Shown one piece after another: positions 654 to 3,703 of a DNA stretch of 64,000 nucleotides (positions are counted from its first letter, which is position 1; each line of letters starts with the position of its first letter). Both the position numbers and the translations under genes were made by a program. Source of the stretch: an uncultured SAR116 cluster alpha proteobacterium (GTDB taxonomy: Bacteria > Pseudomonadota > Alphaproteobacteria > Puniceispirillales > Marisalimonadaceae); NCBI GenBank assembly GCA_902589185.1, contig CACIRZ010000003.1, positions 1 through 64,000 on the forward strand. Reading direction: 5' to 3'. Under the pieces are notes generated by a model. It had not been told where the DNA came from. It did not search any database and saw only the letters and a list, made by a program, of their open reading frames with translations.

Positions 654-793
654 TTAAAACTCCTTAAATTCTTATTTAATAAAATGAGATAATTTAAATT
701 ATAATTTTTAAAATTAATATCTCAACAAATTTAATTAATATAAGCAATATATTTGTGCATCACCATGTACATCAACCATTAATCAGTAAACAT

Positions 794-853
794 AATATGC
801 TTACATGTCAATGTGTCAACATGTTATATTGATGTGAAATGGTGCGCTCTGAG
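794..853. repeat. Distal copy of 60-bp direct repeat containing a tRNA-Arg 3'-end fragment (att-like)
   Basis: aatatgcttacat (794-806) and tgaaatggtgcgctctgag (835-853), same spacing as 3581-3640. Confidence 0.8.
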
Positions 854-1074
854 AAAAAGTTCTATGCCTATTCAATGTACCACACACACTGCTACATAAG
901 CTATACCATTAGATTATGTATTAAATGCTTAATGTCAATACGCACGAAATGTGAATCAGTTTGTGCATCAGTTAAATTAACTGTTATTAGTACAGAGCAA
1001 GTGGGTGTGTAAGTATATTAATATACCTCTCTTTAATAACACTTATATGTATTACTTTAAGTGTTGCACACTTA

Positions 1075-1135
1075 CCGGGCATGGGACATGGGGGTATGGC
1101 TAGATATGTTTAGTTAGGGTATGCAGCAGATGGGG
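1075..1135 (+). repeat. Dispersed 61-bp repeat copy 2 of 3
   Basis: ccgggcatgggacatgggggtatggctagatatgtttagttagggtatgcagcagatgggg. Confidence 0.9.
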
Positions 1136-1157
1136 TTTTAGAATTGGTAAAGTAAGG

Positions 1158-1463
1158 TTATTCAAAATTTTTTGTTAACTCAGGACTTAATATTCCAGTT
1201 TCAATAGTAAACTTACATTCAAACTTCGTTGCAAAGTTTTCTATTCTCTCTTTCATTAAAGGTAAGAAATTTTCCATATTTTCTTTCGTATCAAAACAAT
1301 GAACACCCAAACCTTTATCTGGAGAAACATGAAAAGAGTTCATCCATAATCTTCCTTTAGGGTTTTTGGCAGGTTGATTGTCTGCAAGGTAGTCGTGAGC
1401 GATTCCCATTACCTTTGGATTCATGTATCTTATATGAAGGAAAACACAGAAATTTGCTGACAT
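1158..1463 (-). CDS. Small hypothetical protein, possibly dimeric alpha/beta-barrel type
   Basis: 101-aa ORF; resembles the neighbouring small proteins in size and layout only. Confidence 0.55.
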   Translation of the reverse strand: MSANFCVFLHIRYMNPKVMGIAHDYLADNQPAKNPKGRLWMNSFHVSPDKGLGVHCFDTKENMENFLPLMKERIENFATKFECKFTIETGILSPELTKNFE

Positions 1464-1477
1464 TTATTAACCTTTAT

Positions 1478-1821
1478 TTAATAATCTTCACTTACATAAT
1501 CTAATAATGTAATTGCTCTACTACTTACAATTTTTGCATTAATTAGTAAAAAATCTTTTTTATATTTATCATAAAATTCATCTACAATAATTTGACAATT
1601 TTTGAAAGCTTTTTCATCCTTATATTCATATACTTGAGAAAGTGTAAAACTGCCTTGTTTGTTCCAAACTCTATTCATTCTCCATCTTAATAGGCCCTTT
1701 TTTTTGCTTTGTTAAAAAATTCAGAAGCTTTTTCTTCAAAGAACCTTGTGCCAAGTTCCATATGAGTTTCAGATGGAAAATCTACAATTGTATAGCTAAT
1801 TAATTTGGGGGTGTTTTTCAT
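1478..1821 (-). pseudogene. Frameshifted paralog of the 2030-2359 protein (or slippage-dependent gene)
   Basis: ATG at 1821 gives MKNTPKLISYTIVDFPSETHMELG...; frame breaks at T8 (A8 on the coding strand) 1698-1705; continues as MNRVWNKQGSFTLSQVYEY... Confidence 0.65.
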
Positions 1822-1887
1822 GTAAAAATGATAAAACCTTAACAAATGTTTGTAAATGTTAAAAAGGGTTCAATTGTATCAGACACC

Positions 1888-1948
1888 CCGGGCAAGGGAC
1901 ATGGGGGTATGGCTAGATATGTATAGTTAGGGTGTGTAACAGATGGGG
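1888..1948 (+). repeat. Dispersed 61-bp repeat copy 3 of 3
   Basis: ccgggcaagggacatgggggtatggctagatatgtatagttagggtgtgtaacagatgggg. Confidence 0.9.
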
Positions 1949-2029
1949 AATTTGTTTACAGTTAAAATTTCATAATTGATTGTAATAAACTTTAAATTAT
2001 ATGATAATTTGAGAATTAAAAAAGGAAAT

Positions 2030-2359
2030 ATGAAGATGTCTGCACTCATCAATTATACTACTCTTGTCTTTACTACCGAATTTGAGATGAACGAGATGAT
2101 AAATCATATTGATAATACTAGTAAAGTATGGGCACCTCAAATGAAAAAACGTGGTTTAAAACGTTTTGTATGTACTCGTATTTGGAACAAAGGTGATACA
2201 TTTAAATTAGGAATTTTATTTGAATACGATACTAAAGAAGCATTTGAAGCAAACGTTGAGTATTTAGATAAACATTTCAATACTCTTCCTAAAACAAAAG
2301 AATTGATGACTATGGCAAAAATAGAGGGAAGCCGAGGAATTTCAGTTTTTGAAGTTTAA
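2030..2359 (+). CDS. Small hypothetical protein, dimeric alpha/beta-barrel-like
   Basis: MKMSALINYTTLVFTTEF...; start at 2030 preferred over 1976 because of upstream aaaggaaa; homologous by eye to the 1478-1821 product. Confidence 0.65.
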   Translation: MKMSALINYTTLVFTTEFEMNEMINHIDNTSKVWAPQMKKRGLKRFVCTRIWNKGDTFKLGILFEYDTKEAFEANVEYLDKHFNTLPKTKELMTMAKIEGSRGISVFEV

Positions 2360-2420
2360 GTATAATAAGTTTTTCTTTAATGTAAAATATATGAAGAAAG
2401 AAAATTATGAACATATATAA

Positions 2421-3278
2421 TCATACTTCCCTACGATACAGATTAGCTCGTCTTGTAAAGTTACCACTCTTACCTTTTTGTATGCACTTAATTGCACCTA
2501 ACTTTTCTAACTTCTTCATAATAGTTTTCACATCACCTTTAGAGCAATGAGCTTCTTTTGCTGCTACTGCATTTGGCCATGCAAATGTATCTTTCTTAAC
2601 AAATCGTCTCTTAATCTTACCCCACATAAAGTATATATTCTTATCATCTGTATCTATTATAGATGCTTCAACTCTATCTAGCTTTAAGTGTTTGTTTATC
2701 TGTTTGTCTATGTACGTGATTAGAGTATTTAATTGTTCAGGTGATAATGGCTCATTTGAATGTTCATTAACTAACTTATTAGCTCTTAAAACTATCATAT
2801 CTCTGTCAGCATTATCTTCAGCTAACTGAAATGCAGTTTGTTTAGCTTTAGATAACAATTCTTTATCATCTATAAATGCATCACCTAATTGTTCTTTTTG
2901 ATAAGCTGATTGAGCAGTTCTTTGTTTCTTATCTTTTAGTGCATTACCAAATGGTTTTGGTTTAAGAATTTTATCTAATTCACGATAAAACACTTCCATA
3001 GATGTTATTTCTTTTTTGAATACCTTACGTTTAATCTCATGATGTTTATCTTTTGCTTTAGTGTTAAAGTGGTCTTGCCAATAGAATGCTCTTTGGTAAT
3101 ATGCTGGAATAGCACCTCCAATTTTAGCCCAGTTTCCATCAAAAAGAATATGATGAAAAGCATACCATTCTAAGTGTCTTATTATAAAATCAGGATGTTC
3201 AAAATATTTATGTTCTACTGAAGTCATTAAGCTCCTCATCAATATTGGAAAACCTTTACACAATATAGCTTTTCGCAA
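2421..3278 (-). CDS. Winged-helix/HTH-like DNA-binding protein, possibly mobile-element replication or regulation
   Basis: C-terminal KEAHCSKGDVKTIMKKLEKLGAIKCI resembles a winged helix; ORF 5' end at 3278 is TTG, ATG at 3239 or 3224 more likely. Confidence 0.5.
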   Translation of the reverse strand: MRKAILCKGFPILMRSLMTSVEHKYFEHPDFIIRHLEWYAFHHILFDGNWAKIGGAIPAYYQRAFYWQDHFNTKAKDKHHEIKRKVFKKEITSMEVFYRELDKILKPKPFGNALKDKKQRTAQSAYQKEQLGDAFIDDKELLSKAKQTAFQLAEDNADRDMIVLRANKLVNEHSNEPLSPEQLNTLITYIDKQINKHLKLDRVEASIIDTDDKNIYFMWGKIKRRFVKKDTFAWPNAVAAKEAHCSKGDVKTIMKKLEKLGAIKCIQKGKSGNFTRRANLYRREV

Positions 3279-3363
3279 GTATTAGCTATCAAATTTGGGG
3301 ATTTTGTATTATACTATAAATATGCTAAAAATGCAAGGTATTTATAGTACACATAGGTACTAC

Positions 3364-3382
3364 TATACTGTATAACAGTATA
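3364..3382. promoter_or_regulatory. Perfect inverted repeat TATACTGT-ATA-ACAGTATA
   Basis: 8-bp arms upstream of the 2421-3278 gene; nearby TAGTAC-N6-GTACTA at 3345-3362. Confidence 0.55.
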
Positions 3383-3580
3383 ATATTTTAATTACATAAA
3401 TTTCTTATAATTATACATTTGATTTGGTTCTTAAACATATGACTATACGGTCATTCTTATAATATGACCTCACATCATACGGAACACGCTTACTGAAATA
3501 ATACACACCACGCTTTTTATATAAGTAGGAAACATTTAAATGGTCTACCATCTGGTCTACCCTCCAAGCACACATTACAC

Positions 3581-3640
3581 AATATGCTTACATATCAACT
3601 ACTTAGGGCGACTTGGTCACATGAAATGGTGCGCTCTGAG
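3581..3640. repeat. Proximal copy of 60-bp direct repeat overlapping the tRNA-Arg 3' end
   Basis: aatatgcttacat (3581-3593) and tgaaatggtgcgctctgag (3622-3640). Confidence 0.8.
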
Positions 3641-3703
3641 GGACTCGAACCCCCAACCTTTTGATTCGAAGTCAAATACTCTATCCAGTTGAGCTAAGAG
3701 CGC
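3627..3703 (-). tRNA. tRNA-Arg (anticodon TCG), CCA encoded
   Basis: GCGCTCTTAGCTCAACTGGATAGAGTATTTGACTTCGAATCAAAAGGTTGGGGGTTCGAGTCCCTCAGAGCGCACCA folds as cloverleaf. Confidence 0.93.

Follow-up and report, generated by a model that had tools for sequence, protein, structure and literature searches.

A putatively mobilizable, integrase-less unit at a tRNA-Arg gene of a SAR116 bacterium and related elements with an inverted second attachment site

Background

Two described classes of mobile DNA are closest to the locus considered here. Cis-mobilizable elements (CIMEs) derive from integrative and conjugative elements (ICEs) or integrative and mobilizable elements (IMEs), move by conjugation and range from 1.2 to 13 kb in size (S. 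salivarius study, PMC7563491). Tycheposons, as described in Methylophilaceae, measure 4-200 kb and encode their own recombinase (PMC10872708). SAR116 bacteria are abundant in the ocean and for the most part uncultured, and the variation among their genomes is poorly explained. We analyzed a stretch of 64,000 nucleotides from an uncultured SAR116 bacterium (contig CACIRZ010000003.1; hereafter, the window), in which a 2.8-kb unit lies next to a tRNA-Arg(TCG) gene. We propose, with a probability of roughly 0.75, that positions 835-3640 are a mosaic, integrase-less, CIME-like unit that is bounded by attachment (att) sites, occupies part of a tandem island at the tRNA gene and would be mobilized by a related integrase.

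Like CIMEs, the unit retains its att sites, has lost its recombination gene, stands in tandem with an element using the same att site and carries small cargo (PMC7563491). Unlike in CIMEs, its ends belong to two integrase types, and we call it “CIME-like” because its parents may or may not be ICEs or IMEs. With the tycheposons of Prochlorococcus and Methylophilaceae it shares a marine host, a tRNA anchor, a tyrosine recombinase lineage and variable cargo. However, it is only 2.8 kb long and has just a remnant of an integrase, and its parents, whose integrases belong to the DUF6538 family, carry an inverted second attP.

Attachment sites at the tRNA-Arg gene

The 3′ end of tRNA-Arg(TCG) and its flank form a 19-bp sequence, TGAAATGGTGCGCTCTGAG, that occurs exactly, and in the same orientation, at two positions 2,787 bp apart (Table 1). 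Markov simulations of the left 3.6 kb (n = 200) gave no match to it longer than 10 bp, and this core repeat is therefore not due to chance. The original prediction, made from the letters of the window, had reported the repeat and also a second block, AATATGCTTACAT, situated 41 bp ahead of each core copy with the same constant offset; both were confirmed. Its description of the whole as a single 60-bp direct repeat does not hold. The two 60-bp stretches are identical at 42 of 60 positions, with 6 of 20 in the middle window (814-833), and their exact parts are the 13-bp AATATGCTTACAT block and the core, with unrelated DNA between them. The exact match is confined to these two blocks because each copy is the att arm of a different integrase type. 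Rather than a duplication made by integration, the 13-bp block is where a conserved, predicted integration host factor (IHF)-type site of the att arms begins.

A grammar for these arms was derived by comparing relatives around the same tRNA gene. A P′ arm lies to the left of each core, and to the right is either the tRNA or a leader, which is the P arm. Both P′ and P contain a pair of sites, spaced 12 bp apart, that is specific to the integrase type (GGTCTACC for type A, TGTGCATCA for type B and TTTCACA for type C). The geometry is constant: the P′ pair is at -86, the IHF consensus at -34 and the P pair at +93. The putative IHF-binding sequence of the arms is TATCAAnnnnTTA, and a perfect consensus is present in 11 of 18 arms, versus 0.2 expected from shuffles. 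In the window, the distal site reads armB-core-L1; both of its flanks are of type B, and its IHF site has decayed. The proximal site reads armA-core-tRNA. The right end of the unit is complete (P′ arm A, IHF site, core in the tRNA and 54 integrase codons), and its left end is a type B P arm. The outer arm at 754-834 belongs to another element, in line with the predicted tandem insertion of a second element leftward. This neighbor cannot be traced further because the contig begins at window position 1; the source assembly is 62% complete.

A different integrase, type D (MSCVRKRGKSW...), occurs at the same tRNA-Arg in relatives. Its far-end copies of the tRNA are partial and 66 bp long (L040 8728, L045 5706, L041 7840), and it therefore has a longer core than the DUF6538 elements.

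An integrase remnant and its family

No integrase or recombinase had been predicted in the unit. We found that an open reading frame (ORF) at its right end matches DUF6538 and is 91% identical over 56 amino acids to intact integrases of the same genus. It occupies the position at which the integrase starts in intact relatives, with the start codon inside the arm. In all comparisons with relatives whose integrase is longer, integrase DNA homology breaks off at 3413-3416. The catalytic domain is missing, as the frame ends after 54 codons; the intact relatives also have PF00589 (8.4e-15).

The DUF6538 integrase family occurs in 31 of 40 genomes of the genus and, among 136 genomes searched in the order, in 85. 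The parent elements encode this tyrosine recombinase and insert at the 3′ ends of several tRNA genes. Intact integrases with related arms are found at the same tRNA-Arg and at Gly, Leu, Phe, Thr, Asn and Arg(ACG) tRNAs, and at least nine different tRNA genes are used by the family. The core, the arms and the intact integrases at the same tRNA in relatives support the idea of tRNA-targeted integration. Two further loci of the same att system, one of them at tRNA-Gly(GCC), are present in the window’s genome, also without an intact integrase (G000:C26 15000-16000 and G000:C10 32800-34000).

Sister units and vacant sites

Units with the same L1...armA ends and other cargo occur in two relatives, G012 (1.85 kb) and G019 (1.4 kb). 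The junction armB-core-tRNA, which corresponds to the state without the 2.8-kb unit, was found in five (G009, G019, G025, G026 and G031). No relative carries the 2.8-kb block: by DNA comparison, its whole combination of pieces is absent from them, and the pieces occur separately in other SAR116 genomes. Empty sites and the lack of a fixed block thus agree with the original prediction of a non-autonomous cargo unit whose content varies between relatives. That the unit is mobilized in trans is plausible.

A sister element at tRNA-Gly(GCC) in G022 is 1.83 kb long, lacks an integrase and has both arms. From the chromosomal flank to the tRNA, it consists of a core, L2 with a GGTCTACC pair, the G-rich block, two cargo genes, one of which encodes a T5orf172 domain, armA and a second core. 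The same site is truly vacant in G010 (94% contiguous match) and G013 (92%), holds an 18-kb element in G032 and has other insertions in G062 and G034. As far as genome comparison can tell, these sister elements show that the class is mobile.

Cargo and mosaic structure

The seams within the unit are sharp by DNA comparison. The leader extends from the core to ~1136. The gene at 1158-1463 and the stretch at 1477-1821 match different sets of genomes, and the latter, which covers most of a disrupted DUF6974 gene, matches DNA of G005 at 90%. G004 and G019 contain the cassette at 1889-2364 with identities of 98.9% and 98.7%, whereas their flanking housekeeping DNA is 85.9% and 85.4% identical to the window; the cassette was therefore transferred recently. 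In G005, DNA next to an IntC element matches the block at 2469-3420 with 90.7% identity. The features are listed in Table 1.

Table 1 Features of the unit and its surroundings (window positions unless another sequence is named), followed by parent elements in other genomes
Feature	Position	Strand	Basis or remark
Target gene tRNA-Arg(TCG), attB side	3627-3703	minus	ARAGORN; Rfam RF00005
Proximal att core (attL), CCA-side 3′ end of tRNA-Arg(TCG)	3622-3640		Exact match to 835-853
Distal att core	835-853		Serves as attR of the 2.8-kb unit and as right end of the left neighbor element
P′ arm type A	3541-3626		Same arm beside intact IntA genes in relatives
Type A site pair, two sites 12 bp apart	3541-3561		TGGTCTACCATCTGGTCTACC; within P′ arm type A
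IHF consensus	3593-3605		TATCAACTACTTA; within P′ arm type A
P′ arm type B of left neighbor element	754-834		Sites TGTGCATCACCATGTACATCA at 754-774; IHF site decayed (TGTCAATGTGTCA)
P arm type B (leader L1)	854-970		Sites TGTGAATCAGTTTGTGCATCA at 950-970; same leader after core in ~10 relatives
Integrase remnant, first 54 codons of DUF6538 tyrosine recombinase	3411-3575	minus	PF20172 4.2e-11
Conserved leader module ending in G-rich block (CGGGCATGGGACATGGGGG...GATGGGG)	973-1140	plus	32/40 genus genomes; alignment
G-rich block, second copy, left border of DUF6974 cassette	1889-1948	plus	
G-rich block, third copy, partial, inside left neighbor element	3-47	plus	
Small cargo ORF, 101 aa (amino acids)	1158-1463	minus	No family match; recurs in sister islands
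Disrupted DUF6974 gene, two ORFs (1478-1678, 1687-1845)	1478-1845	minus	PF22388 2.4e-8 on first ORF
DUF6974 cargo gene, 109 aa	2030-2359	plus	PF22388 2.9e-13
268-aa protein, possible winged-helix region	2421-3227	minus	Weak DnaD-like helicase-loader/replication-initiation match: PHROG 186 3.9e-4, 270 6.7e-3
Lys/Ala-rich cargo protein of left neighbor, 193 aa, probable signal peptide	72-653	minus	One homologue in 40 genomes
Element in G003, 4.1 kb			P-arm inverted repeat 239 bp, 99.6%
Element in G032, 18 kb			Direct attR/attL and internal inverted attP
Two elements in G048			P-arm inverted repeats 394 bp at 99.0%; 197 bp at 100%
Element in G053			P-arm inverted repeat 298 bp, 99.7%
Element in G037			P-arm inverted repeat 435 bp at 97.9%, including a 405-bp stretch at 100%
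Element in Ruegeria sp. TM1040 (cultured)	~586101-598854 of finished megaplasmid NC_008043.1		tRNA-Phe

The G-rich block (CGGGCATGGGACATGGGGGTATGGCTAGATATG...GATGGGG) is found at the ends of leaders and, on its own, between cargo genes, as though it marked cassette seams. It occurs three times in the window, the copy that closes the leader lying at 1076-1140, and twice in another locus (L033 5311-5367 and 5930-5986). We considered whether the G-rich leader might act as an RNA. In the window, Rfam detected only the tRNA and sub-threshold noise. The fold predicted with RNAalifold from 18 copies has no covariation support (covariation term +0.78; any compensatory change in 3 of 35 pairs), and the leader was taken to be conserved DNA. 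The same 18 copies contain no foldable sites resembling attC, and an integron-like cassette array was rejected.

DUF6974 (PF22388) is the commonest cargo family, being present in 38 of 40 genus genomes with up to 10 copies each, also elsewhere in these genomes. Large MORN-repeat-like and caspase-like proteins, as judged by eye, are recurrent cargo at tRNA islands (L098 1717-3732, L125 1-762, L040, L045 and L050). A search for defense genes with PADLOC was negative for four proteins of the window and one cargo protein of G037.

An inverted second attP in intact parents

An inverted copy of the P′ arm and tRNA core follows 45 of 58 full-length integrases (44 of 57 without one double-counted locus). 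The copy is located directly past the integrase stop codon, often by 3-31 bp, or past intervening cargo. Nine of the 13 integrases without it are probably cut off by contig ends. For the inverted copies, the medians are 80 bp in length and 98.8% in identity. Among the 30 loci in which the end of the copy was measured, 26 have it 13-17 bp within the tRNA. Arms of different loci have a median ungapped identity of 32% in a crude comparison that pools all integrase types. As a control, the unrelated type D integrase at the same tRNA has no inverted copy of arm plus core. In several loci with cargo between the integrase and the inverted copy, the arm encodes the start codon and first residues of the cargo protein (MCAWRVDQM, MMYMV).

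Beyond the inverted core, the cognate P arm is present in nearly all inspected cases, the exception being the tRNA-Phe locus of G032. Given that the inverted arm and core abut a complete P arm, the integrated element keeps an extra, inverted attP. The full set, consisting of direct attR and attL with an internal inverted attP, occurs in G003, G032, G048 (twice), G053, G037 and Ruegeria sp. TM1040. One of the two G048 elements is in a tandem array, as are the left neighbors in G048 and G053. In TM1040, the inverted repeats of the P arm (1,148 bp) and of the arm plus core (85 bp) are both 100% identical. The presence of the arrangement in a finished megaplasmid means that it is not an artifact of single-cell amplification. 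Two BRO-family genes with the same protein accession lie in opposite orientation in the 1,148-bp repeats (L208 26364-26939 and 36708-37283), which flank a type I restriction system.

The internal copy mostly holds only the core-proximal P′ arm site, which may explain why the integrase is almost always beside the tRNA. An exception is G003, and in TM1040 the second P′ arm site of the internal copy falls inside the integrase gene. Integrated copies that are flipped, such that the integrase faces the leader and not the tRNA, were seen only in L060, a 2.4-kb contig, and in tandem arrays. There is therefore no evidence of free flipping in the integrated state.

Some loci have additional properties. 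L049 (G031) is a natural hybrid, with a type B integrase at the tRNA and an internal inverted attP and cargo start of type A. In G019, the internal inverted attP is followed by more leader-arm segments that run in the inverted direction, as though other units had inserted at this site (L039 8107-8190 and 6490-6580). A complete tRNA-Thr element in G037 encodes a 508-amino acid protein with polymerase-like motifs (DYSGISLRIL, HDGF; L203 6055-7581), which might serve replication of a circle. Inspection by eye and partial family searches of the parents revealed integrase, small ORFs, restriction genes and the polymerase-like gene, and no relaxase or other part of a conjugation or mobilization module, although no systematic search was made. 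The sole long match in PLSDB is the integrated copy in Ruegeria TM1040, and no plasmid form was found there. Searches of the open literature, which leaves most subscription journals outside, for the inverted-attP arrangement, DUF6538 and TM1040 revealed no account of this arrangement.

Proposed mechanism and alternative explanations

Under our proposal, a type A or B integrase, supplied by a resident or incoming relative, would bind the 12-bp-spaced arm sites and, together with IHF, recombine the two cores. The unit would then be excised as a 2.8-kb circle (armA-core-L1) and integrate again at the core, or it might travel by tandem accretion. Homologous recombination between shared leaders or G-rich blocks could reshuffle the cargo. 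As intact parents carry a second, inverted attP, the excised parent circle would contain two inverted att sites, and recombination between them by the integrase could reverse the orientation of one half of the circle. With lower confidence, we suggest that inversion and repair keep the parent repeats identical, in the manner of the yeast 2-micron plasmid. A broader scenario, whose odds we place somewhat short of even, is that the parent family stays integrated with a built-in inverted attP, while its circles flip the integrase half against the cargo half. This would keep the repeats identical and might drive amplification or switch the gene beside the tRNA or leader. The integrase-less units would be stripped derivatives of this family.

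Several observations weigh against a mobile unit. Its P arm is of type B and its P′ arm of type A, so that possibly no single integrase serves it. Decay has affected both a DUF6974 gene and the IHF site in the outer arm, and the window’s own assembly, 62% complete, contains no intact integrase of the DUF6538 family. Moreover, the whole case for excision and transfer is built on comparing genomes. The mixed arms, the decay and the missing integrase, together with the integrase cut at 3413, also fit a dead scar. In this case, two or more elements (type B, then type A) had inserted in tandem at tRNA-Arg, a deletion joined the left part of one to the right end of another, and the 2.8-kb block is an immobile by-product. 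We take this alternative seriously but find it doubtful: the same pair of L1 and armA ends recurs with other cargo in G012 and G019, the proximal arm and both cores are intact, the cassette at 1889-2364 moved recently and G022 has a clean integrase-less element with matched ends. Although the original prediction concerns a genuine feature and was for the most part correct, the unit in the window is a small derivative and possibly immobile.

The two remaining explanations fit the data far less well. The original prediction had likened the unit to a satellite or a tycheposon-like element. On this reading, it would be cargo that is packaged in or carried by phage particles or vesicles and mobilized by a helper phage. 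The marine host, the tRNA 3′ end, the small cargo and the lack of a complete recombinase of its own are in its favor. However, both labels now seem improbable, since published tycheposons are larger and have their own recombinase (PMC10872708). Scans of IMG/VR with proteins and patterns detected neither a close relative of the integrase nor the att signature, phage records in INPHARED likewise held no close integrase relative, and no capsid, packaging or known defense genes were found. As for a chance repeat, or an artifact of amplification or assembly, most genomes of the genus are single-cell assemblies, and multiple displacement amplification is known to produce inverted chimeras. This explanation is very improbable, however, given a 19-bp match far above the simulated level, the same architecture in single-contig genomes and in the TM1040 megaplasmid, and the uniform endpoints of the inverted copies within the tRNA.

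Comparison with known systems

The CIME-like unit and its parents can also be compared with more distant systems. Strand-biased circularizing integrative elements are likewise small and have a tyrosine recombinase and inverted end motifs (PMC9345347). These elements (SE-6283/SE-6945) have imperfect 19-bp end motifs, two recombinases (IntA and IntB) and CDS2/CDS4, and the main text describing them mentions no tRNA targets (PMC9345347). Both their gene set and their end motifs are unlike those of the DUF6538 elements. IntpTN3 of Thermococcus nautili, a tRNA-targeting tyrosine recombinase, inverts DNA between inverted att sites in vitro, but these are provided by chromosomal paralogues or constructs and not by a second attP built into an element (PMC5495485). 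Integrons resemble the present islands in having small-ORF cassettes split by a conserved repeat, with a site-specific recombinase nearby. By contrast, the repeat here has no covariation support as a folded site, and the att sites consist of tRNA cores, arm sites and IHF sites, not attC or attI. We know of no report of an inverted second attP in tycheposons.

The value of the unit in the window lies in the parent family that it exposed. If the inverted attP is active, this would explain the upkeep of near-perfect inverted repeats and how one integrase clade changes its tRNA targets. The same arrangement in the cultured Ruegeria sp. TM1040 makes the idea directly testable. The yeast 2-micron plasmid, with its Flp/FRT system, is a circle of two unique halves between inverted repeats that each contain a recombinase site. 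The circle predicted from the parents would have the same design, with two unique halves and two long, near-identical inverted repeats with recombinase sites. However, the parents are bacterial, integrate at tRNA genes and use lambda-like core, arm and IHF sites, and their internal copy, other than in G003, mostly lacks the outer P′ site. With an active inverted attP, the family would be the equivalent, in bacteria and at tRNA genes, of invertible circles such as the 2-micron plasmid.

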